Below, one piece after another: positions 129-12,715 of a stretch of 12,941 nucleotides of DNA. The position numbers and the translations under genes are program-made. The notes beneath the pieces were generated by a model. That model had not been told where the DNA came from, searched no databases, and saw nothing but the letters and a program-made list of their open reading frames with translations. This DNA comes from an uncultured Angelakisella sp. (GTDB taxonomy: Bacteria; Bacillota; Clostridia; Oscillospirales; Ruminococcaceae). Location: contig CAJFUT010000173.1 of NCBI GenBank assembly GCA_904420255.1, forward strand, positions 1-12,941, read 5' to 3'. The stretch's first letter is position 1, and every line of letters starts with the position of its first letter.

Positions 129-611
129 CTATGCCAGGGGTTTGATGGCGAAATACCGGTAGGTGACATTCAGCTGGTTGAGGCAGATCTTGGCCATCCC
201 CGCCAGGGGGCTGCTCTGGGCCTGCTTGGCGGTGAAACCGGTTGCGGTGAGGGCGACGCCGCTGCTCCCCTGGCCGTCGGCCGCCACGGCGAACCGCAGC
301 AGGGGGTTGTCCTGGACGGTGTCCAGCTCCAGGGGGCCGTAGCCCTGGGCCGTCACCACCAGGAGGGCGGGCTGAAAGCCCAGGGTCACCGCCTTTTCCG
401 CCGCCCCGTCCCCGGTGTAGGTCCCGGTGACAAAGGGCTGGGCCACCCAGGTGCTCTGGTTGCCCTGGAGGTGGAGGGCGGTGTTCTGGACATGGGCCTG
501 GAGGGCGCTGTCCACCTTTTGGTTGTCGCTGTTGAAGTCCGCCATTTTGGGCTTGTCCCCGGCGGACCAGCTGTTGAGCTGGAGGTAGCTGGTCTTGGCG
601 CTGCTGGGCAT
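129..611 (-). CDS. Short tail-fibre-like / receptor-contact protein
   Basis: This 160-residue protein is the last gene of the tail module in the window. The N-terminal part (about residues 8-40, with the string KMADFNSDNQKVDSAL) resembles the opening segment of many Clostridia phage fibres, where a conserved FN-x-x-x-x-K-x-D-x-A-L pattern begins the fibre. From about residue 60 the sequence is rich in Thr, Gly, Ala and Val with alternating hydrophobic residues (GTYTGDGAAEKAVTLGF), as in small beta-sandwich fibre tips. It follows tail protein I by 19 bp, the usual fibre position, and has an AGGAG site before its ATG. It is short for a fibre, so it may be a tip or collar with further fibre genes to the left. 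The specific receptor role is inferred. Confidence 0.65.
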   Translation of the reverse strand: MPSSAKTSYLQLNSWSAGDKPKMADFNSDNQKVDSALQAHVQNTALHLQGNQSTWVAQPFVTGTYTGDGAAEKAVTLGFQPALLVVTAQGYGPLELDTVQDNPLLRFAVAADGQGSSGVALTATGFTAKQAQSSPLAGMAKICLNQLNVTYRYFAIKPLA

Positions 612-630: not shown

Positions 631-1239
631 TCAAGAGGCCGCCGGGGCTTCCCCGGTGTCCCGCTGCTGCCAGGTCAGGTCCTGGGCGTCCAGCTGGGCC
701 CAGGTGAGGTCCTGGGCGTCCCAGGCGGTCCAGTCCGGGCCGCCGAACTCAAATTCCACCGCCATGTGGGCGGGGAGGAACTCCCTGGCCCGGTCCATGC
801 AGTCGTAAACCGAGTCGTAGCTGGGGTCGAAGGAGGCCACCTCAATGAGCAGCGTCCCCGCCAGGGGGTCCTCCGCCACCGAGGCGGCGGTGATGCCGGC
901 GGCGGCCAGGCATTTTTCCATCCCGGCGGGGGTGCAGTCCCCGGGGGAAAGGGCCAGCAGGGCCGCCACCGTGGCCCGGCGCTCCTCCAGGGTGGCCCTT
1001 GGCCGCAGGGGCAGCTCCAGGATGTCCTCCCAGAGGCGGAGCCGCTCCTCGGAGCAGGTCTGGGGGAGGCAGTCCCCGCCCGCCTGGTCCAGGGCCTCCT
1101 CCACAATGCCCACCCCGGTCATGTAGGCCTGCATCTCGTATTTCACCAGGGTGTCCCCCGCAAGGTCGTAGAGCCCCAGGGCGGCCATGTCCCGGTACAT
1201 CTGGCTCTTGGGGAGGGCCAGGATGGGATGCTCCCTCAT
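631..1239 (-). CDS. Phage tail protein I / YmfQ-XkdU-like baseplate protein
   Basis: This 202-residue protein lies directly after baseplate J, the position of P2 gpI, Mu gp48 and PBSX XkdU. These proteins join the baseplate wedge to the fibres. Features typical of the YmfQ/DUF2313 group include an N-terminal helical part (about 10-60), a central segment with the string RATLEERRATVAALLAL (about residues 80-97) and a C-terminal alpha/beta domain ending in FLPAHMAVEFEF. The tail end carries two tandem 10-residue units, DAQDLTWAQL and DAQDLTWQQR (residues 174-193). The ATG overlaps the stop of gene J by 4 bp (ATGA), and GGAGG lies 7 nt upstream, so translation is probably coupled. The family call rests on position and general pattern more than on catalytic residues. 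Confidence 0.75.
   Translation of the reverse strand: MREHPILALPKSQMYRDMAALGLYDLAGDTLVKYEMQAYMTGVGIVEEALDQAGGDCLPQTCSEERLRLWEDILELPLRPRATLEERRATVAALLALSPGDCTPAGMEKCLAAAGITAASVAEDPLAGTLLIEVASFDPSYDSVYDCMDRAREFLPAHMAVEFEFGGPDWTAWDAQDLTWAQLDAQDLTWQQRDTGEAPAAS
671..721 (-). repeat. Two near-identical tandem copies (30-bp period) at the 3' end of the tail protein I gene
   Basis: A 21-bp sequence at 671-691 is repeated at 701-721 with one change. The 30-bp period keeps frame and encodes the doubled DAQDLTW motif near the C terminus of tail protein I. In-frame tandem repeats such as this can expand or contract by slippage. They lie where the protein would meet the fibre, so copy number could change the length of an attachment segment (inference). 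Confidence 0.8.
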
Positions 1240-2306
1240 ACCGTCACCTCCATCTGGGTGACGGTGATCCCCGAGGGCACCAGCAGCCGGTCCTCCAGGG
1301 GGTAGGTGTCGGCGGCGGGCAGCTCCACGGCGCAGTTATACACCCCGGGCACCCCCATCACCACGCTGCCCATCCGGGCCAGCAGCCACGGGGCGCCGAT
1401 CTCCAGCTCCCCCATGGCGGCGGTGAGGGCATCCTCCACGGCGGCGCTCACCGAGGCGAATTCCCACCCCTGCTCCACCGCCACCTCCAGCTCCAGGTTC
1501 ACCGGGGTGGTCTGGGGGGAGCGCACCACCACGTCCACCCCCAGCTCCCGCCGGGCCGAGGCCAGCTCCTGGAGCTGGGTGAGCTGGGCCTGGCCCAGGG
1601 CCCCCGAGGCGCCGTAGGCCAGGATGTCCACCGTGCCGCTGCCCCGGAAGGCGGGCAGCACCTTCACCTTCCCCACCCCGGCCTGGGAGAGGATCAGCTC
1701 CCGGTAGTACCCCGCGCTCCCCTCCACCGCCGGGTGGCGGTAACTGTCCAGCAGCCGGGCCCGGAGAGATTCGTCGTCCTCCGGGTCGGCGCCGCCGGTG
1801 CAGTCGGAGATGTGGGTCACCTCGGTGATGCCCTGGGGCGGCGTCACCATGACGGTGATGTTCCCCGATTTGATGTTGTAGGCCGCCCCCGGCTCCACCG
1901 CGTCCACGGTGCAGAGGATGCTGGTGGCGGCGGGCACCATGGTCATATCCCACCGGGTGGCGTACTGGAGGGCCTCGGCGCCCCCGGTCTGGACCAGGGT
2001 CCCCGCCGGGATCAGGACGCTGTACCCCACCGGGGCCGGGCGCTTGAAGATCACCGCCCCGGTGGCCTTGGTGCCCTCCTTCCGGGAGAGGCCCCGGAGG
2101 GCGGCGTGGCGCTCCAGGGCCTCCCCCGCGGCGGTGGCGGGGAAAGCCTGGCGGTCCACCTCCTCCGCCCGCTGCTGGAGCAGGTCCAGCTGGGCCGCCA
2201 GCACCTGGATGCGGATGGCGATGTCCGAGGCCTGGTCCGGGGTGTTGCCGGCCAGGCTGCAGTAGTAGTCCAGCATCTGCTGGCGCAGGGTTTCATAATA
2301 CTCCAT
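1236..2306 (-). CDS. Baseplate assembly protein J (contractile tail wedge)
   Basis: This 356-residue protein matches the Baseplate_J family (P2 gpJ, Mu gp47, PBSX XkdT, T4 gp6 type), which forms the baseplate wedge ring. Family landmarks are GEALERHAALRGLSRK (61-76), the beta-rich segment with IPAGTLVQT (99-107), the AYNIKSGNITVM turn (142-153) and the diagnostic TGGADPEDDESLRARLL (170-186). A GxxGYYRELILSQAGVGKVKV stretch follows, then a C-terminal alpha/beta region. Length is normal for the family. GGAGGG sits 7 nt before the ATG. The 5' end overlaps the W-like gene by 14 bp and the 3' end overlaps tail protein I by 4 bp. Confidence 0.95.
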   Translation of the reverse strand: MEYYETLRQQMLDYYCSLAGNTPDQASDIAIRIQVLAAQLDLLQQRAEEVDRQAFPATAAGEALERHAALRGLSRKEGTKATGAVIFKRPAPVGYSVLIPAGTLVQTGGAEALQYATRWDMTMVPAATSILCTVDAVEPGAAYNIKSGNITVMVTPPQGITEVTHISDCTGGADPEDDESLRARLLDSYRHPAVEGSAGYYRELILSQAGVGKVKVLPAFRGSGTVDILAYGASGALGQAQLTQLQELASARRELGVDVVVRSPQTTPVNLELEVAVEQGWEFASVSAAVEDALTAAMGELEIGAPWLLARMGSVVMGVPGVYNCAVELPAADTYPLEDRLLVPSGITVTQMEVTV

Positions 2307-2676
2307 GGGCGTTCCCTCCCGATACCTCCAAGGCCAGCTCCAGGGCCTGTCCCCCCAGAGCCAGGCGGCACTTCACCCCGGCCCGGTCGGCGGCGGGGTC
2401 ATAGCTGCACGCCACCCGGGTCAGCCGCACCCCCGCCATGGGGGACAGGGCCTCCTCAATGGCGGCGCGGGCAAAGCCCTCCATCTCCTCCCGGCTCCCC
2501 CGGGGCATCCGGTACAGCCGGCTGCCCAGCTCCGGGTCCAGCCGGAAGGAGCCCCTGGGGACGGCCAGGCGCAGCCAGATCCGCTGGGCCTGCTCCTCCG
2601 CCCCCGTCACCGGGATGGGCACCCCCTGCAGGGTGGCGGCGAAATCCCGCTTCTCCGGGTCCAGCTTCATATCCAT
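2293..2676 (-). CDS. Baseplate wedge protein, gp25/gpW/XkdS-like
   Basis: This 127-residue protein fits the short lysozyme-fold-like wedge family (T4 gp25, P2 gpW; PBSX XkdS/DUF2634), which helps join sheath and baseplate. The hallmark is the segment RLAVPRGSFRLDPELGSRLY (about residues 36-55), matching the family pattern of a short strand, then F-x-L-x-x-x-x-G-S-x-L. An amphipathic helix follows (REEMEGFARAAIEEAL) before a beta-rich end. It precedes gene J, as in other myophages. Two starts are possible: the ATG used here has GGGAG 7 nt upstream, while an ATG two codons later has GGAGG 6 nt upstream; the product differs by two residues. Confidence 0.85.
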   Translation of the reverse strand: MDMKLDPEKRDFAATLQGVPIPVTGAEEQAQRIWLRLAVPRGSFRLDPELGSRLYRMPRGSREEMEGFARAAIEEALSPMAGVRLTRVACSYDPAADRAGVKCRLALGGQALELALEVSGGNAHGVL

Positions 2677-2689
2677 CCTCCCACTCCCT

Positions 2690-3052
2690 TCATCCTTCGG
2701 TTCCCTGGTTTTCCTCCGCCGGGGGCTGGAAGGCCTGGCCGTTGATGACCACCGTCCCGTCGGCCTTGAGCCAGATATAGCTCCCGGCGGGGCCGCTGAT
2801 CCGCACCTCCCCGGGGGCCAGCCCCTGGGGGTCCCCCGGCACCCCGGCGCAGAATTCCCCGCTCCCGGTGCGCAGCAGCAGCACCTCCTCCCCCTGGCTG
2901 GGGCACCAGGCGTAGCCCCCCGGCGCCACCATGGGCCGGTAGCGGTATTCCTGGTCCGCCACCGCCCCCCACTGGCCGTCCTCGGAATAGGACACCTGGG
3001 CCAGGGCGGATTCCTCCTCCCGCCGCCGCTCCAGCAGCCCGTCCAGCAGCAT
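2690..3052 (-). CDS. Baseplate spike / gpV-like assembly protein (short)
   Basis: This 120-residue protein lies between the hub and the W-like gene, the slot of P2 gpV and PBSX XkdR-type proteins that form the membrane-piercing spike. The pattern is an N-terminal helix (LLDGLLERRREEE), an OB-fold-like core with the string RPMVAPGGYAWCPSQGEEVLLL (split: RPMVAPGGYAWC at 39-50, then GEEVLLL), and a C-terminal hairpin SYIWLKADGTVVING (91-105). The last resembles the ends of gpV-type proteins, in which short strands alternate with D-G turns. It is shorter than P2 gpV (about 211 residues) and lacks an obvious His-rich apex, so the tip may be a separate protein. GGGAGG lies 8 nt before the chosen ATG. 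An ATG at 3070 overlapping the hub stop codon is an alternative with a poorer site. Confidence 0.75.
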   Translation of the reverse strand: MLLDGLLERRREEESALAQVSYSEDGQWGAVADQEYRYRPMVAPGGYAWCPSQGEEVLLLRTGSGEFCAGVPGDPQGLAPGEVRISGPAGSYIWLKADGTVVINGQAFQPPAEENQGTEG

Positions 3053-3066
3053 CGTCCTTCCTCCCT

Positions 3067-4020
3067 TCATTCCGCCAGGATCAGCCGGGTGTACTCCCCC
3101 CGGTCCGACCACTCCCAGCGGCTCTGCCACACCGTCATGTCCTTCGCCGGCCCCAGGCCGGTTTCCAGGGTCACCCGGTCCCCCGGGGAAAGCTCCGCCC
3201 ACCCCGGCAGGAGGGCCTCCGCCGTCCGGGCCCCGTGCTGGGCCTGGCGGAACCGCTCCCAGGCGTCGGCGGTGGGGACGGTGGCGTATTCCGCCCCGGG
3301 GATGACATACCGGCGGCGGACCACCCGCCAGGGGTTGCCCCAGGGGTTTCCCAGGGAGCGGCTGTAGTTCCCCTTCTTGTCCCGGAGGATGATCTCGGAG
3401 ATCACCGAGGCCCGGCGGACGGTGTCCTCCGCCGAGAGATACCGCAGCCCCTCCCGCCCCGGGCGGTTGGTGATCCGGGCCGCCGGGGCGGCGGGCAGCT
3501 CCGCCACCACCACCCGCTCCCCGGTGGTGACCCTGGGGGAAAGGGCGTACATCCGCACACAGAAGGCGTAAAACACCTCCCAGTGGCTCATCCCCTTGGC
3601 CACGGTGAAGACCCCGGCGGTGTAGTCCCGGGGGATTTCCAGGGCCGAGGGGGAAAAGCCGTAGGGGACCAGGTGCTCCCGGAAGATGTCCCGGGTGGAT
3701 ACGTTGTAGTAGGTCTGGGGCAGGGCCTCGTTGTCCAGCAGGAGGCCCCCCCGGCTCCTGGCCTGGATCTCCAGGGTCCGGCCGTCCCCGTCCTCCCGGG
3801 CGGTCTGCTGGTCGCACCAGCCGGCGAAGATCCGGCGGTTCCCCCGGCTGAGGGTGACGGTGACGGCGGGGGAGGGGGCCGTCCCCCGCTCCAGGGGGAA
3901 AACCGCCTCCAGGCTCTGGGCGGGGCTCTCCAGGGTGCGGGTGAGCAGGGCGGAAAAAGGCCCCGTCAGCTCCAGGCTGCCCCCGTCCGCCAGCCCCAGG
4001 GTCATGGCGATCTTTTCCAT
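3067..4020 (-). CDS. Tail hub / late control gpD-like protein (XkdQ-like)
   Basis: This 317-residue protein matches the length and position of the baseplate hub family (P2 gpD, T4 gp27, PBSX XkdQ), which forms the ring that links tail tube to spike. Visible traits are an early beta-rich domain ending in RRIFAGWCDQQTAR (about 62-75), a middle segment with LPQTYYNVSTRDIFREHL, and late beta-rich segments (LSPGDRVTLETGLG and DMTVWQSRWEWSDRGEYTRLIL). The latter follow the family habit of a G-D-x-V/I turn before the C-terminal strands. AGGAGG lies 7 nt before this ATG. A GTG two codons upstream overlaps the previous stop codon but sits only about 2 nt from the same ribosome binding site, so it was not chosen. 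The gene begins 2 bp after the upstream stop. Confidence 0.85.
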   Translation of the reverse strand: MEKIAMTLGLADGGSLELTGPFSALLTRTLESPAQSLEAVFPLERGTAPSPAVTVTLSRGNRRIFAGWCDQQTAREDGDGRTLEIQARSRGGLLLDNEALPQTYYNVSTRDIFREHLVPYGFSPSALEIPRDYTAGVFTVAKGMSHWEVFYAFCVRMYALSPRVTTGERVVVAELPAAPAARITNRPGREGLRYLSAEDTVRRASVISEIILRDKKGNYSRSLGNPWGNPWRVVRRRYVIPGAEYATVPTADAWERFRQAQHGARTAEALLPGWAELSPGDRVTLETGLGPAKDMTVWQSRWEWSDRGEYTRLILAE

Positions 4021-4022
4021 CC

Positions 4023-4385
4023 TCACCCCTCCTGCCCGGCCCAGGACGCCCCCGGGCGCTCCAAAAATTCAAAGGAATACCGGATCACCTGGCCGTCCCC
4101 CTCCCCCAGCCATCCCAGCTTGGAGAAGTGGGCCGTCACCGCCGTGTGCCCCGGCAGCACCAGCCGCCCCGGGGTCTGCTGGAAGAACAGCTCCTCCAGC
4201 CGGCGGTACTGGTCCCCCGCCTCGGGGCCGAAAAACGCCCCCTCCCCGGTGATGACCCGCTGCTGGACCCCCAGCTCCTGGATCACCGGGCCGTAGCCGG
4301 GGCAGTGGCCCACCCCCAGGCGGTTCACCGCCCCCACCTCCAGCTTGGCGGGCTCGTGGGGAAAGACAAAATCCTTAAACTGCAT
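4023..4385 (-). CDS. Short baseplate/tail protein resembling the N-terminal domain of phage gpU/DNA-circularization proteins
   Basis: This 120-residue protein lies just before the hub gene, where P2-like phages place gpU/gpX and PBSX places XkdP. The segment QELGVQQRVITGEGAFFG (36-53), then QYRRLEELFFQQTPGRLVLPG, resembles the conserved stretch in Mu gpN-type 'DNA circularization' and gpU-like proteins: an E-x-L/G motif, G-x-F/G, a central helix, and x-P-G-x-L-x-x-P-G. Proteins of this class sit at the tube-hub junction. It is far shorter than Mu gpN (about 490 residues) and has no visible LysM domain, unlike XkdP. GGGAGG precedes the ATG by about 6 nt. The family assignment is by eye and moderate; the tail role is well supported by context. 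Confidence 0.6.
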   Translation of the reverse strand: MQFKDFVFPHEPAKLEVGAVNRLGVGHCPGYGPVIQELGVQQRVITGEGAFFGPEAGDQYRRLEELFFQQTPGRLVLPGHTAVTAHFSKLGWLGEGDGQVIRYSFEFLERPGASWAGQEG

Positions 4386-4412
4386 GGAGGGCCTCCCTTC
4401 CTCTCACGGTTC

Positions 4413-4430
4413 CCCGGCCCCGGGGCCGGG
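4413..4430. promoter_or_regulatory. Perfect 18-bp GC-only palindrome between the 127-residue gene and the gpU-like gene
   Basis: The 18 bases are identical to their own reverse complement and contain only G and C. As RNA they can fold to a 7-bp stem with a 4-nt loop. It lies in a 54-bp gap, one of the few gaps in this densely packed tail operon, about 30 nt upstream of the next ATG. No T-run follows on the minus strand, so it is unlikely to be an intrinsic terminator. An RNA-stability or attenuation role is possible. Confidence 0.5.
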
Positions 4431-4439
4431 ATGGTTCCT

Positions 4440-4823
4440 TTACAGCACTTCCTCCCCAAAAAGGCCGGCGGTGCTGCCCATCCGCCGCAGCACCCGGAGC
4501 CGCCGGGAAAGGGCCCGCTCCAGATCCTCCTGGGGACGGAGGGGGGCATAACCTCCCCCGCCGCCCCAGCCGCCGGTTTCCACCCCCGCCGCCTGGGAAA
4601 GGCTACCGCCTCCCGGGGCCCGGGCGGAGGCCGGGGCTGCCGGCCCCTCCCCTCTCCCCGCGGCCGGGGAAAGGGGGGCGGGCATCCCTCCCGCCTCCCC
4701 CCGGGCGCTGGCGGGGAGATCGGGCCCCCGGGCCTCCCGGGCGGGGGCGGGGCCCTCCTCCCCGGGGGAAAGGCGGCGGAGGGCCGCCTCCAGGCCCCGG
4801 GCCAGGAGCTGCCGGGGGGTCAC
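4440..4823 (-). CDS. Low-complexity Ala/Gly/Pro-rich protein occupying the tape-measure position (function unknown)
   Basis: I do not recognise this 127-residue protein. It opens with a basic amphipathic helix (LLARGLEAALRRL, residues 5-17). A disordered middle (about 20-90) of Ala, Gly, Pro, Glu and Ser follows, including a run of five Gly. It ends with a second helical segment, DLERALSRRLRVLRRM (about 100-115). It sits directly after the tail tube gene, where myophages encode the tail-assembly chaperone and then the tape measure. It shows no similarity that I can see to XkdN-type chaperones and is far too short for a normal tape measure. The GTG start overlaps the tube stop codon by 4 bp (GTGA), with GGAGG 7 nt upstream, which supports real translation. 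It could be a remnant or miniature tape measure, a chaperone-like linker, or a deletion scar. Confidence 0.6.
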   Translation of the reverse strand: MTPRQLLARGLEAALRRLSPGEEGPAPAREARGPDLPASARGEAGGMPAPLSPAAGRGEGPAAPASARAPGGGSLSQAAGVETGGWGGGGGYAPLRPQEDLERALSRRLRVLRRMGSTAGLFGEEVL

Positions 4824-5209
4824 GCCGCCACCTCCACCCGGCGGCTGGCGGCGATGGTCACCGTTTCAAACACCAGGTCCCCGGCGCTGGCCGCCTCGGC
4901 GATGTCCGACCACTGGCAGCCGGAATAGATGATCTTCCGCCCCGGCCGGGCCACCACCACGTTGAAGTCGCTGAGGCTGTAAAAATCCACCTTGTCCCGG
5001 AGGGCGGCGCCGGTGGCGCAGACCCGGGTCAGCTCCAGGACGTGCTTCACCCGGCCGTCCACGGCGCCCACCGGCTCCCTGCTGCCGAAGGCCTCCACAT
5101 AGCGGCTCTCCTTGGTGGTGCGGGCCTTGTAGCTCTGGGCCACCGCCAGGGGCTGGCCGTTGACCTCGATGGTGATGTCGCTGCCGGTGGGGAATGTGAT
5201 CCTGCTCAT
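4820..5209 (-). CDS. Tail tube protein (contractile tail, XkdM/gp19-like)
   Basis: This 129-residue protein follows the sheath gene by 18 bp, the standard place for the inner tube. The beta-rich layout is typical of tube proteins: a start with FPTGSDITIEVNGQPLAVAQSYKA (given here in parts: SDITIEVNGQPLA at 9-21), an EAFGSREPVGAV segment (39-50) like the family's FGE-x-EP/VxxV turn, HVLELTRV strands, and a final DLVFETVTIAA strand. A GGAGG motif lies about 7 nt before the ATG. Stacked rings of this protein would form the channel for DNA. In T4-like and PBSX-like systems tube length is set by the tape measure, which is not evident next door. Confidence 0.85.
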   Translation of the reverse strand: MSRITFPTGSDITIEVNGQPLAVAQSYKARTTKESRYVEAFGSREPVGAVDGRVKHVLELTRVCATGAALRDKVDFYSLSDFNVVVARPGRKIIYSGCQWSDIAEAASAGDLVFETVTIAASRRVEVAA

Positions 5210-5227: not shown

Positions 5228-6256
5228 TTAAAGCTGGATCTGGGCCTGAATCTGGATCTGGTTGATGAGGTAGGCGGCGGTGAAGGAAACCTCCACCACG
5301 CACACCTCGGGGGCAGTGCTGGGGCAGTAGGCCCTGGGGGCGCCGTACTGGGTGATGATCCCCCGGTCCTGGAGCTCCCCCAGCAGGACGGTGACCTGGC
5401 TGGCCACCGCCGAGAGGGTCTGGGCGCTGTTCCTGGCCCCCTTGAGGAAGGCCGCCAGGCTCTGGCGCAGGGCCTTCATCACATAGTCCACAATGAGGAT
5501 GGAATTGATGGGGGAAAAGGAACGGTTGGGGCTGCCGTCCAGGGAGGTGCTGGTGGTGATGACCCGCACCGCCTCCACCCCGTCCCCGGAGCGGCAGAGG
5601 GGGGTCACCCCCGCCCCCAGGAGGGCGTCGATCTGGGCCCAGGTGGCCTCGGCCTCCAGGGTGGGGAGGCCCGCCAGCTCCTGGCCGGTGAGGGAAACGA
5701 TGGGCTCCTCCATCACCGCCACGGCGGCGCAGAGGGCCGCCGCCCCCAGGAAGGGGACGCCGTCCTCCTCCCCCTCCGGCACCGGGCTGCCCCAGGAGAG
5801 CACCACCCGGGGGCTGTTCACCGCCGCCGCGATGGTCTGGGCCGAGGCGATGTCCCCGCAGCCGGCGAAGGCCACCATCTCCCGCTGCTCCTCGGCCTGC
5901 TGCTCCACAAAGGCCTTGACGGCGGCCAGGACGGCCTGGCTCCCGTCCTCCACCGCCAGAAGGTCGGGGGAGGCGGCCTGGTTCAGGGCCGCCAGGGCGG
6001 TGGTATAGCCGGCGGCCCCGGCGTCGGAGGCCACCGAAAGGGCGGCGAACTCCGAAAGCCCCGCGGCGAAAAGCACCTCCGCCGCCTGAGCCAGGCCGGC
6101 GGGGATGACGTCCCCCCGGCGGTAGGTGTGGGGGAGGCTGTCGGAAAGGCCGAAGGCCCCGATGACCCCCACCCCCAGGGCCTCCACCGCCCCGGTGTAG
6201 CCGGGGAGGATGGTGTAGCTGGAAAAGACCCCCGGCCGGTAACTGCTGATGCTCAT
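5228..6256 (-). CDS. Contractile tail sheath protein
   Basis: This 342-residue protein is a compact member of the phage sheath family. The N-terminal arm contains YRPGVFSSY (6-14), like the R-P-G-V-Y/F segment at the start of many Clostridia sheaths. The C terminus ends in the strands EVCVVEVSFTAAYLINQ and IQIQAQIQL (last residues), the donated arm that interlocks neighbouring subunits. The middle, Ala-rich segment forms the alpha/beta subtilisin-like core. It lacks room for large outer insertions found in sheaths of 450 residues or more. AAGGAGG lies 7 nt before the ATG, and ATGA overlaps the stop of the preceding gene by 4 bp. A sheath proves a contractile (myovirus-type) tail. Confidence 0.92.
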   Translation of the reverse strand: MSISSYRPGVFSSYTILPGYTGAVEALGVGVIGAFGLSDSLPHTYRRGDVIPAGLAQAAEVLFAAGLSEFAALSVASDAGAAGYTTALAALNQAASPDLLAVEDGSQAVLAAVKAFVEQQAEEQREMVAFAGCGDIASAQTIAAAVNSPRVVLSWGSPVPEGEEDGVPFLGAAALCAAVAVMEEPIVSLTGQELAGLPTLEAEATWAQIDALLGAGVTPLCRSGDGVEAVRVITTSTSLDGSPNRSFSPINSILIVDYVMKALRQSLAAFLKGARNSAQTLSAVASQVTVLLGELQDRGIITQYGAPRAYCPSTAPEVCVVEVSFTAAYLINQIQIQAQIQL

Positions 6257-6753
6257 TGGCTTTCCTCCTTCTTCACAATGATGCTGCCGATGGCCGCCGC
6301 CTCCTCGCTGTAAAGGAGGAAGGCCCGGAGGCTCCCCCGGCAGGTGAGGCGGAAGCCCCCCGCCTCTCGGTCAAAGGCCAGGCTCCCGCAGGAAAGGTCC
6401 CGGACCCGGGGCCCGCCCTCCTCCAGCATGAAGAACTGGCACAGCTCCCCAAAAATCCGGTGGCAGGCCCCGGCGTCGTAGCGGTCCAGGATATCCGCCC
6501 GCAGCCCCAGCTCCAATTCCCTTCCCATGGCGCCGGCGGCGGGCAGGCCCCCCTGGGCCGGCTCCTCCCCCAGGTAGGGGGAGAGGCCGGCGCCCGGGGC
6601 GGTGATCTTTTCCACCCCCAGCCAGACCACCGGCTGGTCGGGGGGGAGCTTCCGCTGGAAAAAGGGGTAGTCGGCGGTGACCAGGGCCTCGGGCAGGCGC
6701 TCCCCCAGGCCCTCCGCCAGCTCCTCCAGCAGCTCCCGCACCGGCCCGCTCAT
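6253..6753 (-). CDS. Tail terminator / tail completion-like protein
   Basis: This 166-residue protein lies between the head-tail connector and the sheath, the place of tail terminator or XkdJ-like proteins that cap the tail before it joins the head. Visible structure: an N-terminal helix (VRELLEELAEGL), a PPDQPVVWLGVEKI strand, a LELGLRADILDRYDAGACHRIFGELCQFFM segment (given in parts: LRADILDRY and CHRIFGELCQFF) and a C-terminal beta pair with FRLTCRGSLRAFLL. This strand-helix-strand arrangement, with a G-x-L-x-x-F-L-x-Y end, is typical of terminators in Clostridia phages. GGAGG lies 6 nt before the ATG; both ends overlap neighbours by 4 bp. The assignment rests mostly on position and size. 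Confidence 0.65.
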   Translation of the reverse strand: MSGPVRELLEELAEGLGERLPEALVTADYPFFQRKLPPDQPVVWLGVEKITAPGAGLSPYLGEEPAQGGLPAAGAMGRELELGLRADILDRYDAGACHRIFGELCQFFMLEEGGPRVRDLSCGSLAFDREAGGFRLTCRGSLRAFLLYSEEAAAIGSIIVKKEESQ

Positions 6754-7103
6754 AAGGCGCCTCCGGTGCGCCGGAAGCAGAACTCCGGCGGCAGCAGCCA
6801 GGGGGAGGCCCCCCGGCGGTACTCCTCCTCCAGGGCCTCGGCGGCGCTCCTGGCCCCCTCGGGGCCGGAAACCGGCTCCCCGATGGCCAGGGTCCCCCCC
6901 GCCGCCAGGGTGAGGAGGACAAACCGGCGGCAGGCCATGGCGGCGGCGTAGGCCTCCAGGGGCCCTTCCCCGCCGGGGGCGCCGCTCTGCATGGCCCGGA
7001 CCCGGCCCATGGCGTCGGCGCAGAGGGTCCGGCGCTTCTCCCCCTCCTCCTGGGAAAGGCCGCAGAACTCGGTGAAACGGCTCACAATGTTATCCAGCTG
7101 CAT
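6750..7103 (-). CDS. Head-tail connector (gp6/XkdH-type adaptor)
   Basis: This 117-residue protein follows the major capsid gene and precedes the terminator-like gene, as adaptor proteins do in HK97- and PBSX-like phages. The N-terminal half is helical (LDNIVSRFTEFCGLSQEE and KRRTLCADAMGRVRAM), followed by an Ala-rich helix with AAAMACRRFVLLTLAA (about 52-67). This helical bundle pattern matches connector rings that bind the portal. AGGAGG lies close before the ATG (AAGGAGGAACC-ATG). The 3' end overlaps the next gene by 4 bp. The exact adaptor subfamily cannot be told from sequence alone. Confidence 0.7.
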   Translation of the reverse strand: MQLDNIVSRFTEFCGLSQEEGEKRRTLCADAMGRVRAMQSGAPGGEGPLEAYAAAMACRRFVLLTLAAGGTLAIGEPVSGPEGARSAAEALEEEYRRGASPWLLPPEFCFRRTGGAL

Positions 7104-7152: not shown

Positions 7153-8181
7153 TCAGCCGCCGGTGGAGGCGGGCTTCAGCTCCAGCACCTGGACCGCCTG
7201 GGGGAATATCTTGGCGAAACCGGCGGTGGAGGTGATGGCCGCCCGCTCCATCTGGCAGTCGATGAGCTTGTCGTAATCCACCGTCACATCCCCGGCGGTG
7301 ACCATCTCCAGGGCGCAGCGGCTGTCCATGGCGATGATGGTGCCGTCGGGCACGGCGGAGGTTTTGATGAGCTTCGCCCCCATGGGGGTGCCCAGGCGGC
7401 CGGTGGCGTTGAAGTCCAGCCCGGCGGCGGGGTCCTTCATCTCGCTGAGGTTCAGGATGGCGGCGGCCATGTCGGGGGCGGCCAGGAGGGTGTCCATCCG
7501 GCAGCCGTCAAACCGCTTCCACAGCCCCACCAGGTCGGCGTAGGCCAGGGCGGTGCCGGCGGTCTGGATGGGGGTGGCGGCGGTGCCCTCGTTGCCGTCC
7601 CCGTCGATGAGGACCTCCACCGCGTCCTCCAGCTGGCTCCTCGCGATATAGGCGCCGATCCGCCCCAGGGCCACGGTGAAGAGGTCCAGCCGCTGGAACC
7701 GCAGGGCCTCGTAGGAGGCCGCCAGGAGGCGCCCCCGCTTGCGCAGATGCACCAGGTTCTCCTTGAGGAGGATGTCGGTGCGGGGGATCATGCCCCCCTC
7801 GGCCACGTCCCTGGGCTCCAGGCTGCCGGCGCTTTCGTCCAGGCAGATGGTGCGGTAGTCCAGGGAATCAATCTGGGTGCGGCTGGCCAGGATCTGGCTG
7901 AGGACCTCCCCGTCCTCCATCCCCTGGCGCACCGCCCGGGCCACATACTCGGGGAAGAGGGCGGCGCTGTCCGAGGTGGCGAAGAATTTTTCAATGGGGC
8001 TGCTCCGGGGGCCGCTGACCCGGATGTCGAAGCGTTTGAGCTGGCGCTGGTAGGCATCCAGCCCCTCCAGGGGGGTGCCCCGGTAGTCGGCGGAGGGGTC
8101 CAGCTCCTCCAGCCGGGCGGCAAAGCCCCCGCCCCCCTTGTACATGGTCTTGTCCAGCTTGATGGATTTGTAGCGATTCAT
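7153..8181 (-). CDS. Major capsid protein (HK97-fold)
   Basis: This 342-residue protein is preceded by decoration and protease/scaffold genes and followed by a connector, as expected for a major capsid protein. HK97-fold traits include a long N-terminal segment before the first core strands, the FFATSDSAALFPEYVARAVRQG stretch (given in parts: ATSDSAALFPEYV, about 68-80), the E-loop-like MIPRTDILLKENL region, and the A-domain/P-domain strands near ALGRIGAYIARSQLEDAVEVLI. The C-terminal SVDYDKLIDC-type strand (here VTVDYDKLIDCQMERAAIT) is also common in Clostridia capsids. GGGAGG lies 7 nt before the ATG. A GC-rich hairpin and the repeat island lie in its leader, so its mRNA may be controlled apart from upstream genes. 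Confidence 0.92.
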   Translation of the reverse strand: MNRYKSIKLDKTMYKGGGGFAARLEELDPSADYRGTPLEGLDAYQRQLKRFDIRVSGPRSSPIEKFFATSDSAALFPEYVARAVRQGMEDGEVLSQILASRTQIDSLDYRTICLDESAGSLEPRDVAEGGMIPRTDILLKENLVHLRKRGRLLAASYEALRFQRLDLFTVALGRIGAYIARSQLEDAVEVLIDGDGNEGTAATPIQTAGTALAYADLVGLWKRFDGCRMDTLLAAPDMAAAILNLSEMKDPAAGLDFNATGRLGTPMGAKLIKTSAVPDGTIIAMDSRCALEMVTAGDVTVDYDKLIDCQMERAAITSTAGFAKIFPQAVQVLELKPASTGG

Positions 8182-8318: not shown

Positions 8319-8474
8319 GCTCAGAGAGCGGGGTACAATCTAACGCAACGCAGGCGCTCCTCTCACGGACGCAAAAAGAGCGGGGCACAACCCACCGCCA
8401 TGCAGGCGCTCCTCTCACGGACGCAAAAAGAGCGGGGCACAACCTACCGCCATGCAGGCGCTCCTCTCACGGAC
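8319..8474. repeat. Three tandem 52-bp repeats between decoration and major capsid genes
   Basis: Minus-strand units start with gtccgtgagaggagcgcctg and end with a run gtgccccgctcttttt. Units 1 and 2 (nearest the decoration gene) differ at only one base in 52. Unit 3 (nearest the capsid gene) has diverged in its middle and end. The first unit begins immediately next to the decoration stop codon. The array is the bulk of a 293-bp island (8182-8474) in an operon whose other gaps are mostly under 55 bp. A TTG-started frame of 61 codons crosses it but has no credible support as a gene. A fourth, diverged copy lies in the opposite orientation at 12667-12715. Confidence 0.9.
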
Positions 8475-8816
8475 CTAAAGAAGGATTAGTTCCGCTTCCT
8501 CGCCGCGGATGGCGGTGACGATGGCGGACCGGCCGCCGGCGCCGTTTTTCACCTTGCCTCCGGCGGAGGACACCACCTGGCCGATGCCCAGGGCCAGGGC
8601 GGAGGCGGTGGTGTCGGCGGGGAGGGTGACAAACCCCTCCACCTGGACCAGGGCCAGCTCCCCCTCCCGCGCCACGCAGACCCCGGCAAAGGCCCCGCTG
8701 GCGCAGTCGGCGGCGGTGTCGGCGGCGGTGATGTTCACCGGCTGCCCCACGGTGCAGCTCTCCCCCGCCAGCAGGGTGACGTACTTTTCGTTGAAGCCTT
8801 TCAAACTGACGCTCAT
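8475..8816 (-). CDS. Small capsid decoration / head-stabilisation protein
   Basis: This 113-residue protein lies between protease/scaffold and major capsid genes, a typical place for a decoration protein that binds the capsid surface. The composition is beta-rich and low in charge: YVTLLAGESCTVGQPVNIT (given in parts: YVTLLAGESCTVGQPV, 12-27), VEGFVTLPADT, and a G-x-G-x-V-V-S-S turn. It ends at a stop codon that abuts the first 52-bp repeat unit. AGGAGG lies 8 nt before the ATG. Similar small all-beta proteins include lambda gpD-type and DUF2190-like decoration factors; I cannot assign one. Confidence 0.75.
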   Translation of the reverse strand: MSVSLKGFNEKYVTLLAGESCTVGQPVNITAADTAADCASGAFAGVCVAREGELALVQVEGFVTLPADTTASALALGIGQVVSSAGGKVKNGAGGRSAIVTAIRGEEAELILL

Positions 8817-8829
8817 CTCTCGCTCCTCC

Positions 8830-9819
8830 TCATACCATAAACTGCCGGTTGGACTGGGGGCCGGCCTCCCCCTCCCGGGGCGATTCCTCCGGGGCGGTCT
8901 GGACCAGGGGGCGCTCCCCCACCGGCAGCCGCCGGGCGGCGGCTTTCCGAAGGGCGGCTTCCCACTCCTCCAGTTCCAGGGGGTCCAGCCCCTCCAGGGC
9001 CTTTTTCAGCAGGGCCCGCTCCAGCCCCGGATGGGCCAGCAGCCCCAGGCGGAGGGTTTCCTCCAGCCGCCGCTCCCGCAGCAGCCGCCCCTCCCGGGCC
9101 AGCTTCTCCAGCCCGCCGGCCCACCGGGCCAGCTCCCGGGCCTCGGCCGGGGAGAGGTCCAGCCCCTCCCCCGCCTCCAGGGCCTTGGCCACCCACTCCG
9201 CCGGTTCCCCCGGCAGGGCGGAGCGGCCCTTCACCACCCCGGCGGCGGGCTGGGCGGGCACCGCCACAAAGCTCCACTCGTAGGCGTCGGTGGGGTCCTC
9301 CAGCACCGTGTGGCAGAGGACGCCGCCGTATTCCTCCCCGGGGCGGTGGCCGCAGGGGCTTTGCCGGCGGTCGGCGCCGCAGACGCTGCACCGGGCCGCG
9401 GCGCAGGCGCAGCCCACGCTCACCTCCTTTTTGATGCCGCCGTCGATCTCCAGGATCAGGCCCTGGTTCTCGGGGCTGCGGACCATGTAGGCGTCGGCCC
9501 GGAGGGCGCAGTAGACCTCCCCGGCCCGGGTGCGCCGGTCCGGGTCCCGCTCCACCCGGCAGCGGTAAATCCGGGCGGTCTGGTTGCGGCCCTTGGGGTC
9601 GTGGTCAAAGATGCCGGTCCTCCCCAGGAAAAGCTCCGCCAGCTTCTCCAGGGCGGGGATGGAAAACCGCTCCCCGTCCCGGTCCACCTCGTTGTCGCAG
9701 AGCACCACCGGGAAGATGTAGACCTCCTCCGGGGAAAGCTCCCGCCTGGCGTATTTCCCGATGAGGGCCAGGTCCTCCGGCCCCGGGGCTCCCGCCAGCT
9801 TTTCCGCTTGCTCCTTCAT
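8830..9819 (-). CDS. Prohead protease fused to scaffold, with a cysteine-rich putative zinc-binding insert (XkdF-like)
   Basis: This 329-residue protein follows the portal by 1 bp, where phages encode the protease that matures the capsid. The N-terminal domain (about 30-190) looks like an XkdF/S78-type protease: GIFDHDP with candidate catalytic His at residue 73, EVSVGC with candidate Ser at 134, and the family-typical EWSFVAVPAQPAAGV near 181-195. Between them sits a cysteine-rich insert, CACAAARCSVCG and CGH (Cys 137, 139, 144, 147, 156, His 158), suggesting a bound zinc. The C-terminal part (about 200-300) is Leu/Glu/Arg-rich helix typical of a scaffold. The catalytic assignments are by analogy. 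AGGAGG lies upstream of the ATG, inside the end of the portal gene. Confidence 0.8.
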   Translation of the reverse strand: MKEQAEKLAGAPGPEDLALIGKYARRELSPEEVYIFPVVLCDNEVDRDGERFSIPALEKLAELFLGRTGIFDHDPKGRNQTARIYRCRVERDPDRRTRAGEVYCALRADAYMVRSPENQGLILEIDGGIKKEVSVGCACAAARCSVCGADRRQSPCGHRPGEEYGGVLCHTVLEDPTDAYEWSFVAVPAQPAAGVVKGRSALPGEPAEWVAKALEAGEGLDLSPAEARELARWAGGLEKLAREGRLLRERRLEETLRLGLLAHPGLERALLKKALEGLDPLELEEWEAALRKAAARRLPVGERPLVQTAPEESPREGEAGPQSNRQFMV

Positions 9820-9820
9820 G

Positions 9821-10963
9821 TCAGTTCACTCCCTCCTTTTCCAGCTTGGCGGCCTGGGCGTTCATCAGCCTGGCCTGGGCCAGCTCGGTTTCGTCCTGGA
9901 GGCTGATGTTGTCCCAGACCACCCGGGCTTCTCCCCCCATCCCCGCCAGCTCCAGCACCATCCCGCAGATCTTCTGGATCACCGGGGTCAGCAGGTTCCG
10001 GTAGCTCTCCAGCTCGCTGGTGAGCAGGTCGGCCTGCTGGCGGCTCATCCGCTCGGTGGTGCTCCAGCTCAACCCCAGGAGGAAGGGCGGCAGCCCCGTC
10101 TTGGCAACCATCTGCTCCAAGATCTGCCGCACCGGCACCTGGGTGTCGATGAACTGGCTGTCGGCGCCGATGACCTTGATCTCCACGTCCCCCACCGCCA
10201 CAAAGTCCCGGAGCTCCCCTCGGGCGGAGGCCTCCATGGCCCCGCTCCACTCCCGGGCGATGGCGTCGGCCACCGCCTTGGCGTCGGCCCCCTGGCCCGC
10301 CTTGCAGGTGACGGCGTAGCGCAGGGCGCCGATGCGCTCAAAGTTCTGGCCGATGGAACGGTATATCTGCATCAGCACCGAGGAGAGGAAGGGCAGCCCC
10401 TTTAAGAGGGACTGCCCCGCCGCCTCTCCGGGCCGCGGGTCCAGGGCGGAAAAGAACACCAGCTCGGGGTATGGGAGGGGCTTTGCCCCTCCCGGGGAGG
10501 CGGTCAGCAGCTCCGTTTCCAGGGGCGTTGCCCCCGGGCGGAGCTCCAGGTCCCGCAGGTCGGCCAGGTACAGGGCCGCCACCTCCCGCCCCCCGGGGGA
10601 AAGGACCATCTCCCCCACGGCGCTGCCGTAGGTGAGCAGGCAGTCCAGGTACCCCGCCAGGAAGGAATCCAGCCCCACGGCGCTCCGGCCCCAGGGCACC
10701 CGGCGGCGGAAGCCCTCCAGCAGCCTCTGGGCCCGGGGGTCCGGGTGCTCCAGCCGGAAGCCCCCGGACAGCCGGACGATCTTCTGGATGGCGGCGTCCA
10801 GGATGGGCACCGCCTCCCGCAGCTCCTCGTAGACCGCCGCCTCGGGCGGGCGCAGGGGCCGGGGAAGCCCCGCCTCCCAGGGGCCGCGCCCCCGGCAGGT
10901 CTGGACCGCCGCCACCGCCGCCCCGGCAGGGGCAGGGGTCTTTTTGCCAAACCAGCGCATCAT
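9821..10963 (-). CDS. Phage portal protein
   Basis: This 380-residue protein sits between large terminase and protease, as portal genes do. Portal-family traits include the opening MRWFGKK, the region VYEELREAVPILDAAIQKIV (20 residues, about 45-64), the crown-loop area with VAVGDVEIKVIGADSQ, and KTGLPPFLLGLSWSTTERMS, a segment matching the conserved G-V/L-P-P-x-L-L-G motif near the stem. The C-terminal helix (AQARLMNAQAAKLEKEG) is usual. Twelve copies would form the ring for DNA entry. The ATG overlaps the terminase stop (ATGA), with AAGGAG 8 nt upstream. The same frame stays open upstream, but that part is the shadow of the terminase gene. Confidence 0.93.
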   Translation of the reverse strand: MMRWFGKKTPAPAGAAVAAVQTCRGRGPWEAGLPRPLRPPEAAVYEELREAVPILDAAIQKIVRLSGGFRLEHPDPRAQRLLEGFRRRVPWGRSAVGLDSFLAGYLDCLLTYGSAVGEMVLSPGGREVAALYLADLRDLELRPGATPLETELLTASPGGAKPLPYPELVFFSALDPRPGEAAGQSLLKGLPFLSSVLMQIYRSIGQNFERIGALRYAVTCKAGQGADAKAVADAIAREWSGAMEASARGELRDFVAVGDVEIKVIGADSQFIDTQVPVRQILEQMVAKTGLPPFLLGLSWSTTERMSRQQADLLTSELESYRNLLTPVIQKICGMVLELAGMGGEARVVWDNISLQDETELAQARLMNAQAAKLEKEGVN

Positions 10964-12243
10964 ATCCCACTCTCCTTCTTTCTGGAAACGCTCCGGGCCC
11001 AAAAGCCCTCCTCCTCCCGGCAGGCCACGGTGCTGACAAAGTACCGGATGTCGTCCATGGCGTGGTCCTGCTCCTTCACCGGCTGGTCCCGGTCCTTCCC
11101 CTGGGCCCAGCGGTATTCCCCGAATTCCCGGATGGCGTCGGCGCAGGAGGCGGAGATGAGCAGCCGCCCCGCCCGCAGCTCCCGCCCCACCCGCCGGATG
11201 CCGTCCGCCACCTGGTTCACCGCCGGGATGGCCCGGTACCGCCCCCGGCGGCGGATGCACTCTAAGAAGCTGGCGGCGGAGGGGTCCACCACCACCCCCT
11301 GAAGCTCCCGGCCCCCGGCCAGGGCCTCCAGGGCCTCGTAGTATTCCTCGTCGGTGCGCTGGACCCCCTCCCGGCGGCTGTCGTGGTAATATTCCGCCGC
11401 CCGGTACCATATCTCCCCCTGCCGGCCCCAGAGGCCCATGGAACAGGGGTTGACGGTGCCGTAGTCGCAGGAAATATACCAGTCCCCCAGCCCCTCCGGC
11501 AGCCGCTCCACCACATGGAGGTCCCGCCGGAAGAAGGGATACACCGCCCCCTGGGGGGCCGTCCACCGCCCCAGGACGTACCGCTCATAGAAAGGCCCGG
11601 AATAGAGGCTGCGGTACCGCTCCAGCATGGCGGGGGAAAGGGAGGGGTTGTCCTCCATCCGGAAATGGAGCACCAGGGCGTTCTTCTCCCGGGCCCGGAG
11701 GATCCATTCCCGGTAGAACCAGTGGCCGGGGTGCTCCGGGTTGCAGTTGAACCAGAACCGGGACCCCTCCACCGAGCACCGGGCCAGGGCCTGCTCCACA
11801 AAGGACCGGGGCAGCAGGGCCGCCTCGTCCAGCAGCACCCCCGCCAGGGTGATGCCCTGGATGAGGGCGGCGGAGCCCTCGTCCTTGCCGCCGAAGAGCC
11901 AGAAGCGGTTCCGGCGGCGGCCCCGGGTGATGTCCACCACCCCCCGGCTCCGCTGGTGGCGGCACCGGAAGCCCAGCCCCTCCAGCCGGGGCAGCAGGGG
12001 GGTGAGGATGTTTCGCTCCACCCCGCCCCGGGTCTTGCCGCAGATGGCGAAGCTCCTGCCGTCAAATTCCTCCATGGCCCAGGCCACAAAGGAAAGGCCC
12101 ATGCAGAAGGTCTTGCCGCTGCGCACCGCCCCGTGGCAGATGAGGGCGTCCCGCCCCCGGTGGGGGCTGGCGGGGGTCCACCAGGTGAGGACCTCCAGCT
12201 GCCGGGCCGAGAAGGAGGCGACGGCCTCCCGCCCCTCACCCAT
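10960..12243 (-). CDS. Terminase large subunit (PBSX-type ATPase/nuclease)
   Basis: This 427-residue protein packages DNA into the head, using ATP to translocate it and a nuclease to cut it. The N-terminal ATPase has Walker A GAVRSGKT (38-45), Walker B GVLLDEA (135-141; DE at 139-140) and a motif-III-like FWFNCNPEHP (163-172). The C-terminal RNase H-like nuclease has candidate metal-binding aspartates in WYISCDYGT (D260), GVVVDPS (D320) and DHAMDDIRY (D397/D398). The layout matches Terminase_3/XtmB proteins of normal length. The chosen ATG has AGGAGG 6 nt upstream and overlaps the small-terminase stop by 8 bp; an in-frame ATG 15 codons upstream has a weaker case. Confidence 0.96.
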   Translation of the reverse strand: MGEGREAVASFSARQLEVLTWWTPASPHRGRDALICHGAVRSGKTFCMGLSFVAWAMEEFDGRSFAICGKTRGGVERNILTPLLPRLEGLGFRCRHQRSRGVVDITRGRRRNRFWLFGGKDEGSAALIQGITLAGVLLDEAALLPRSFVEQALARCSVEGSRFWFNCNPEHPGHWFYREWILRAREKNALVLHFRMEDNPSLSPAMLERYRSLYSGPFYERYVLGRWTAPQGAVYPFFRRDLHVVERLPEGLGDWYISCDYGTVNPCSMGLWGRQGEIWYRAAEYYHDSRREGVQRTDEEYYEALEALAGGRELQGVVVDPSAASFLECIRRRGRYRAIPAVNQVADGIRRVGRELRAGRLLISASCADAIREFGEYRWAQGKDRDQPVKEQDHAMDDIRYFVSTVACREEEGFWARSVSRKKESGI

Positions 12244-12592
12244 GGGGCGCCTCCTCCCCGGGGGCGTCCTGCCCGCCCTCCCCCTCACGCCGGTAGAGGG
12301 CCCGGGCGCTCCGGTCCAGGGCGGCGTAGAAGCCGTCCTCCTCCCCGGCCTCCTCCCCCGCCATGGCCGCCAGCCGGTCCAGGGCCTCCAGGCGGCTGAA
12401 AAACTTCATCTCCATGCCCCCCTTCACCCGGCGGATTTCGGAAACGTTAAAGAGGTCCAGGCGGCCCCAGTCCAGGGCCTCCCCCTCCTCCAGGAGCAGC
12501 AGCCGCACCGCGTCCCCCACCGGGCCGAAGGCCAGGCGGCGGTAGCCCTCCTCCACCTGGCCCCGGAGGGCCTCCCTCTTTTCCCGGTCCAT
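12236..12592 (-). CDS. Terminase small subunit
   Basis: This 118-residue protein is the first clear gene of the operon and lies just before the large terminase. The segment YRRLAFGPVGDAVRLLLLEE (17-36) and LDLFNVSEIRRVKGGMEMKF (46-65) match a pattern common in small terminases of Clostridia phages: an 'LAFG-x-V-x-DAVRLL' stretch, then 'LDLFN-x-SEI-K/R-x-x-x-G-x-MEIKF'. The small subunit binds the packaging signal and controls the large subunit. GC-rich Glu/Gly tail at the end. An AAGGGGG site precedes the ATG. The frame continues upstream through TTG at 12679, but that part overlaps a hairpin and repeat and is probably not translated. Confidence 0.82.
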   Translation of the reverse strand: MDREKREALRGQVEEGYRRLAFGPVGDAVRLLLLEEGEALDWGRLDLFNVSEIRRVKGGMEMKFFSRLEALDRLAAMAGEEAGEEDGFYAALDRSARALYRREGEGGQDAPGEEAPHG

Positions 12593-12632
12593 GGCGCCGC
12601 CCCCTTTCACCCATGGGCCCAAAACCACTCCT

Positions 12633-12653
12633 TTTTGCGCTTTCAGCGCAAAA
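12633..12653. promoter_or_regulatory. Perfect 8-bp hairpin in the leader of the terminase genes
   Basis: The arms ttttgcgc and gcgcaaaa pair perfectly across a 5-nt loop. It lies 41 bp upstream of the small terminase ATG. On the minus strand the A-rich side follows the stem, so it does not have the T-tract needed to stop rightward-to-leftward transcription; on the plus strand a T-run appears only 8 nt later, so a plus-strand terminator is possible but weak. Its place suggests a control element for operon entry or an old terminator. Confidence 0.5.
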
Positions 12654-12666
12654 TCACACATTTTTT

Positions 12667-12715
12667 GTCCGTGAGGCAAGTTTCGTGAATCGTTAGTTTG
12701 TGCCCCGCTCTCTTT
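12667..12715 (+). repeat. Diverged single copy of the 52-bp repeat, in inverted orientation to the array
   Basis: The plus strand begins gtccgtgag and ends tttgtgccccgctctcttt, the same ends as the minus-strand units of the array at 8319-8474. With one gap the spacing between the shared ends is conserved. The middle shares cgttag with the most diverged array unit rather than with the two near-identical ones. The copy is the opposite way round relative to the genes. This indicates a dispersed repeat family rather than local duplication alone. Confidence 0.75.

Follow-up and report, generated by a model that had tools for sequence, protein, structure and literature searches.

A phage-derived gene cluster of Angelakisella and its relatives with a probably very short contractile tail and a tape measure that looks reduced to a stub

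The DNA analysed here, called the window, is a stretch of 12,941 nucleotides from an uncultured Angelakisella sp.; it is the entire contig CAJFUT010000173.1 of a 331-contig, 81%-complete assembly (GCA_904420255.1), and the evidence on flanking genes comes from relatives only. The nearest named relatives of the window are Angelakisella and other Oscillospiraceae MAGs. Its genes all lie on the minus strand, head and packaging genes first, then a contractile tail and a fibre-like gene. The small terminase gene (terS, 12236..12679) is assigned by its position and by a weak, below-cut-off Terminase_2 match (PF03592) in two scanned homologues. It is followed by the large terminase (terL, 10960..12288; phrog_2, 3.3e-46; PF03237, 5.4e-13), a portal with an uncertain start codon (9821..10957; phrog_30703, 7.5e-127) and a head maturation protease-like, XkdF-like protein (8830..9819; phrog_16951, 4.5e-99), whose homologue in the Tepidibacter plasmid L208 is annotated as an XkdF-like putative serine protease. 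Then come a head decoration-like protein (8475..8816; phrog_4588, 1.3e-11) and the major capsid protein (MCP, 7153..8181; phrog_3922, 8.4e-95; PF25209, 5e-13), the profile of which matched three recA chains and, weakly, Gp6 among solved structures. Between the decoration and capsid genes (8325-8480), a 52-nt unit is repeated three times in tandem, with copies 85-100% alike; the relative L002 has about 20 nt at this place, and Rfam at gathering thresholds gave no match.

The tail genes begin with a head-tail connector, assigned by position and conservation (6750..7103), and a tail terminator, assigned by position (6253..6753). The tail sheath is short (342 aa, 5228..6256; PF04984, 7.6e-11; phrog_279, 2e-18). 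The tail tube (4820..5209) matches a family of unknown function (phrog_27038, 4.2e-42) and, at 0.013, the tail tube family phrog_185, and its family profile finds the tube-position gene of L208 at 1.2e-33. After two small genes at 4440..4823 and 4023..4385, the baseplate hub (3067..4026; phrog_177, 1.7e-9) is followed by a spike-position protein (2690..3067; phrog_25991 of unknown function, 1.3e-15) with a homologue in L208, by baseplate W or sheath initiator (2293..2676; phrog_120, 1.1e-6), by baseplate J (1236..2306; PF04865, 9.4e-45) and by a baseplate I or Mu gp48-like protein (631..1239; phrog_521, 4.4e-14; PF10076, 6.7e-9, just under cut-off). A tail-fibre-position protein (129..611; phrog_33092, 6.5e-7) comes last, and it closes the cluster in the relatives where it is found. 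Sheath, tube and baseplate J and W are thus all present by PHROGs, Pfam and profiles, and the window carries a contractile-tail module; the earlier note was right to read sheath, tube, hub, spike, W, J and I as complete. Their order, i.e., sheath, tube, (chaperone), slot, DNA_circ/LysM protein, hub, spike, W, J and I, is that of the tail module of Mu and PBSX. Unlike Mu and PBSX, the cluster has no full tape measure, its sheath is short, and no lysis or integration genes were seen beside it in the scanned relatives.

Tape measures are taken as a fixed part of contractile phage tails. In the window, the slot between tube and hub holds only two ORFs, of 127 aa (4440-4823) and 120 aa (4023-4385), neither of which matched a tape-measure or chaperone family in PHROGs and Pfam: the former gave no family at E<=1 and the latter gave weak matches only, to baseplate/DNA_circ_N families. 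We collected relatives through tube, sheath and capsid and mapped their genes with iterative profiles; contractile loci were picked by profile matches to sheath, tube and the homologue of 4023-4385, slot size playing no part. In 35 contractile rows, which make 34 distinct loci (L006 and L083 are one record), 543-1856 nt (median 1048) separate the end of the tube gene from that of the 4023-4385 homologue. In six contractile loci of another family of the same taxonomic order, the figure is 1719-1928 nt. These six are the order-level regions, out of 16, that carry sheath, tube and the 4023-4385 homologue, and the slot is short in every one (slot ORFs inspected in four). All 40 distinct contractile loci (34 + 6) thus have a short slot with no full-length tape measure, a count that leaves out the Tepidibacter outgroup L208, which meets the same three profiles but carries a tape measure. 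Among the 35 rows the longest plausible slot gene has 200 aa, and the longest non-assigned ORF in any slot has 253 aa and is out of frame with readable slot genes. Two positive controls gave long genes at this position: in L206 the same gene calling found an ORF of 696 aa, placed by its TMP_3 match, and the annotated 796-aa tape measure of L208 lies exactly in the slot. L206 (G204:C4:62000-80000) is an ordinary myoprophage about 34 kb from a tape-measure-less cluster on the same contig, and so serves as a control inside one genome. The search for a longer version of the slot in related genomes that the earlier note proposed thus yielded none inside the group and one in the outgroup. The short slot, which is also found on long contigs (e.g., G013 C3, 2.58 Mb), is systematic in the family and is no assembly gap.

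The 127-aa protein of 4440-4823 has a short N-terminal part, a middle rich in Pro, Gly, Ala and Ser, and a C-terminus of which about 30 aa are conserved in close relatives. It lies in the slot that the 796-aa tape measure occupies in L208. Its counterparts in relatives end in [SA]RRY, like the C-terminus of the L208 tape measure, and such a C-terminal motif occurs within the last 30 residues of just 7 of 1423 called genes, stubs counted. A profile of the stub end, made from 19 peptides chosen by eye, was compared with 56 proteins of two phage regions; its best match, a weak one, was to residues 780-793 of the 796 of the L208 tape measure (E 0.02), the next-best match having an E of 1.1 and the control tape measure of L206 giving no match (E 1.5). 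The window's own protein has RRM instead of RRY and a disorder-prone middle, and is tied to the tape measure only via its relatives. In the close clade, the length varies from 110 to 180 aa; the Pro/Gly/Ala/Ser fraction of the middle is 0.56-0.70 in four of the five window-clade proteins checked and 0.41 in L074, while L094 and L085 have no stub-sized ORF in the slot. Judged by these likenesses, the gene at 4440-4823 looks like a tape-measure stub with the C-terminal end kept, so that the tape measure would be reduced and not wholly absent. The earlier note, which had found both tape measure and chaperone missing from the slot, thus stands for the full tape measure and for the chaperone in the window, and needs amending for one slot gene. 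A helical ruler spans about 0.15 nm per residue, so that one of 127 aa could reach no more than about 19 nm. A middle prone to disorder and a length that varies among close relatives favor, over a working ruler, a tether or a plug that remains from the hub end of the tape measure.

A chaperone-like gene adjoins the slot in 26 of the 35 contractile rows (25 of 34 distinct loci), all without a full tape measure, with no match among controls; it is absent from the window and from eight other contractile rows. Most relatives retain this gene and the clade of the window has lost it, so that the joint loss of chaperone and tape measure supposed in the earlier note does not hold. Chaperone-like protein A gave no significant Foldseek match. 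A slippery site in the canonical phase was found in all eight loci inspected, which had been picked for a visible or likely second chaperone frame: the heptamer A-AAA-AAA occurs in the chaperone-like gene of L008, L010, L214, L216, L218, L219, L220 and L223, and the tape-measure-position protein of these loci has, where read, only about 170-230 residues. The other slot protein, 4023-4385, has a weak PF07157 match, stands at the position of XkdP and Mu gp43, and has a predicted tube-like fold whose top structure matches are baseplate proteins; three longer homologues (L008, L010 and L012) have PF07157 over cut-off together with LysM. It is a hub-side tube protein of the DNA_circ_N/LysM type without the LysM domain. 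The LysM protein noted earlier as missing is hence still there, minus this domain only, and the idea that 4023-4385 is itself a tape measure was rejected. In L210 and L217, the homologue of the terminator is joined to the tube protein in one ORF, as would fit a tail of a single ring in these two; it supports the course of change proposed for sheath-less members and gives no measure of the tail in the window. Terminator-o120 fusions in L084, L088 and L114 are not claimed, as the two profiles cover identical residues.

The clusters of the relatives are set among host genes. A Pfam scan of 48 flanking proteins from 23 relatives found overwhelmingly host genes (PGK, phosphoglycerate mutase (iPGM), DegV, SpoU, TrkH, pyruvate kinase, MatE, a sigma factor, rpsT, FtsK, GerA, RpoC, LepA, PheT, RecG and glutamine synthetase) and no integrase, phage replication or holin family. 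The exceptions are a PcfJ-like protein by L009, an M23 peptidase on the other strand by L097, and three proteins without family; the first two could be read otherwise and count against a reading as a gene-transfer-agent-like (GTA-like) element. In these scanned flanks, the structural and packaging genes thus stand without replication, integration and lysis genes, as is looked for in a GTA. A left neighborhood SpoU-DegV-PGK, whole or partial, recurs in 5 of 43 genera (g5, g97, g51, g147 and g32) and hosts both contractile and sheath-less clusters. L076 (g97) and L083 and L095 (g51) are not at this site, the position varying even within genera. Since the site is common to five genera and not to all their members, a fixed genomic position is found only in part. 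A second site, beside a gene of about 800 aa, is common to the sheath-less clusters of g40, g107, g96 and g146. A LexA/DinR-like box near terS was seen in 2 of 63 loci against 0.5 expected in a single-motif scan, a result that we take as negative.

Of 396 genomes of the family, 174 contain the capsid gene (139 of the 283 good genomes), and 169 of these 174 give a single match; the gene was also found in 43 of the 295 genomes searched in the order, 33 of them outside the family. Sixty places were read from the 174 genomes, chosen for long contigs and genus spread and not at random. Distances between cluster proteins follow those of rpoB, with Mantel r of 0.68 for MCP, 0.57 for terL, 0.60 for portal, 0.70 for hub and 0.42 for protease, the largest of 999 permutations being 0.31. 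Within contractile loci r is 0.46-0.66 (only 0.46 for MCP and terL; largest permuted value 0.33). Genomes entered this comparison if a segment of their rpoB was usable (59 for MCP, 53 in the trees). A tree of terL, portal, MCP and hub recovered 20 of the 26 rpoB splits with support >=0.9 and contradicted six; all nine multi-member genera are monophyletic in both the rpoB and the cluster tree, and loss or gain of the sheath takes four changes on the rpoB tree vs at least 13 in 200 shuffles. The six contradicted splits and the weaker correlations reflect some horizontal transfer or tree error. The cluster is thus inherited much as the host is, and this, with the host genes around it in the 23 scanned relatives, speaks against the prophage setting assumed in the earlier note.

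The genes are also intact. Among eight core genes, lengths below 70% of the median were confined to the portal of L009 and L085 and to J of L012, each lying at the end of a contig. In one close pair the dN/dS of MCP and of tube is 0.05, that of sheath 0.16 and that of the terminator-region ORF 0.49. In five genomes of 0.7-0.9 Mb, terminase and capsid are on separate contigs or more than 100 kb apart. In G118, MCP lies at C4:321 kb and terL at C4:195 kb with tail genes; in G209 and G137 capsid and terminase are on different contigs. A transmissible phage should not outlast such splitting. In L210-L213 with L107-L110 (g101 and g120, genomes of 0.7-0.9 Mb), protease and capsid are together and terS-terL elsewhere, and in G327 terS-terL has the portal nearby on the opposite strand. 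Hub, spike, W, J and I are present, and no sheath was found, in L217, L221, L222, L224, L225, L226 and L228.

Among known systems, the closest in gene order is the 38.8-kb circular plasmid NZ_CP120734.1 of Tepidibacter hydrothermalis (L208). It is collinear with the cluster, 15 cluster-gene profiles matching in order with only TerL and the fibre unmatched, and its MCP is 38.7% identical to that of the cluster. Unlike the cluster, it carries the 796-aa tape measure, XhlA, a holin, an M15 peptidase and non-structural genes, and is a phage-plasmid by gene content. RcGTA is a vertically inherited defective phage cluster with a non-contractile tail, whose genes are dispersed in some hosts; GTAs of this type resemble the present cluster in vertical inheritance and dispersal, and differ from it in their unrelated lineage and non-contractile tail. 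Present MCP and TerL profiles were run against genomes that we take to be Faecalibacterium by a 16S probe, the MCP profile finding nothing in ten genomes (six presumed Faecalibacterium and four neighbors) and the TerL profile, with G001 and G013 as positive controls, nothing in five presumed Faecalibacterium. A TerL match in G287 was dropped as a lead to FpGTA, the GTA-like element of Faecalibacterium, for it lies in an ordinary-looking myophage region. Since MCP and TerL were not found in these genomes, we provisionally treat the window's family as separate from FpGTA, a separation that depends on the genus given by the probe. FpGTA resembles the cluster in what is described of it: an operon of about 10 kb on the chromosome that encodes head and packaging proteins and lacks replication genes, found in 12 of 12 Faecalibacterium genomes, with structural genes split over two loci (PMC12946183; Borodovich et al. 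2026). It is described as podovirus-like, and the words sheath, contractile and tape measure do not occur in that main text (PMC12946183), whereas the cluster of the window is contractile. The same source reports GTA-like packaging in Ruminococcaceae, Oscillospiraceae and Christensenellaceae, with short fragments of host DNA packaged in the first two, and for Ruminococcus callidus GTA-like packaging of 4.6 kb with, in the main text, no operon named (PMC12946183). The open literature searched, with subscription journals and preprints largely outside it, held no report of a contractile, tape-measure-less element of this kind.

We conclude that the window probably carries a host-inherited, phage-derived, GTA-like head-and-tail cluster with a very short contractile tail, its tape measure reduced to a stub. 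The ancestor would have been a phage that carried a normal tape measure within the Mu/PBSX gene order, an arrangement that the Tepidibacter plasmid retains. The tape measure would then have shrunk to the 4440-4823 stub, keeping the C-terminal end that may sit at the hub and losing the helical ruler. In assembly, growth of the tube would start from the 4023-4385 protein on the hub, subunits of tube and sheath would form no more than a few rings, and these would be capped by the terminator (6253-6753); terminase and portal would fill a small head, the terminase of the cluster itself packaging DNA, presumably of the host, for delivery by the particle. A contractile particle that has a head and an uncommonly short tail, as suggested in the earlier note, is the best reading.

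Several other explanations have to be weighed against this one. An ordinary prophage, its tape-measure gene of 2-3 kb lost from 4386-4823 in assembly as the earlier note had considered, would suit a short contig of a 331-contig assembly; it is extremely improbable, and for the family it is excluded by the same short slot in all 40 distinct contractile loci, long contigs included, the more so as the ordinary myoprophage of G204 was assembled with its long slot gene. A tape measure encoded elsewhere and acting in trans is conceivable, cluster genes being dispersed in places and FpGTA having two loci (PMC12946183, main text), and 10 of 28 cluster-bearing genomes do have an over-cut-off match to the tape-measure models PF10145 or PF20155 outside the cluster. 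The remaining 18 have none, the only match whose surroundings were read (G204) belongs to the separate myoprophage L206, and the window's own genome offered a single weak candidate (23 bits, C122), which proved to be a GLUG-motif protein, so that this reading, which would also have overturned the earlier note, is quite unlikely. A tape measure in the flanks was likewise rejected: around the 35 contractile rows there are 34 non-cluster gene calls >=500 aa, and of the 24 scanned with Pfam 21 matched non-phage families, the other three, without a match, being antisense to the cluster (L087 and L096) or a 538-aa flank gene (L085); of the ten unscanned calls, most lie on the wrong strand across cluster genes or duplicate L006. 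One of the 21, a gene of 2668 aa some 12 kb from the cluster of G013 (L034:9210-17216), encodes immunity-type domains (SUFU, SUKH, DUF4253, Imm33 and others). As to the stub, a plug or scaffold unrelated to tape measures and gained after tape-measure loss would fit the Pro/Gly/Ala/Ser-rich middle and variable length of the window-clade proteins and the weakness of the match to the tape-measure end (E 0.02). We give it a minor share of belief, as the gene sits exactly at the tape-measure position, relatives retain a chaperone-like gene with a putative frameshift site beside it, and stubs and tape measure have in common a C-terminal motif found in 7 of 1423 genes.

The cluster could also be a decaying prophage remnant without function, as tape measure, chaperone and LysM domain have been lost, and other lineages have lost sheath and baseplate too. 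Such decay is very unlikely in view of the core genes, shortened only at contig ends (L009, L085 and L012), of the dN/dS of 0.05-0.16 for MCP, tube and sheath, and of a genomic position common to several genera. A PBSX-like killing particle, which would package host DNA or none and kill instead of transferring genes, is an unlikely reading that nonetheless keeps some weight. PBSX has a full tape measure, which the cluster has not; a sheath-less relative, L090, stands at the SpoU-DegV-PGK locus, and contraction-based killing is hence unlikely as a general purpose. On its side are the contractile tail, the Mu/PBSX order, and the description of PBSX as a Gram-positive GTA-like element acting as a tailocin, given in the main text of PMC12946183.

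Beyond the window, we hold it possible, with slightly more doubt than confidence, that there is a large, vertical GTA-like lineage, separate from FpGTA, in several families of gut Clostridia, whose contractile members make do without a ruler, with one or a few rings as a tail, and whose forms range to sheath-less, tube-less and dispersed capsid-plus-terminase ones. If so, it could explain GTA-like packaging in hosts without an identified operon, such as Ruminococcus callidus and Onthomonas. A ruler pared to a stub, with sheath, tube and baseplate intact, would offer a natural test of how tail length is set and of how small a working contractile tail can be. With its capsid gene so common (174 of 396 family genomes, 33 outside), the cluster would, if active, move genes among gut bacteria on a large scale, and its gene set can now be searched for in virome proteomics and long reads. 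Five virome contigs (MT835508, MT836604, MT835952, MT838993 and MT835769) are suggestive of packaging, contamination being possible; they look like those of the VLP study PMC8361208, in the main text of which the accessions are absent. Two faecal contigs deposited as phage, L013 (MT835952.1) and L209 (MT836604.1), carry head genes, the 4023-4385 homologue and a hub, no sheath being found in them, and the 46.7-kb faecal contig L011 (MT835508.1) has head genes mid-contig, flanked left and right by genes of the opposite strand; no tail genes were found on it. The listed capsid-protein matches carried the names Ruminococcus, Fimivicinus or Oscillospiraceae, or none, and the Ruminococcus-named capsid proteins P0002, P0020 and P0047 fall in a distant sheath-less class.
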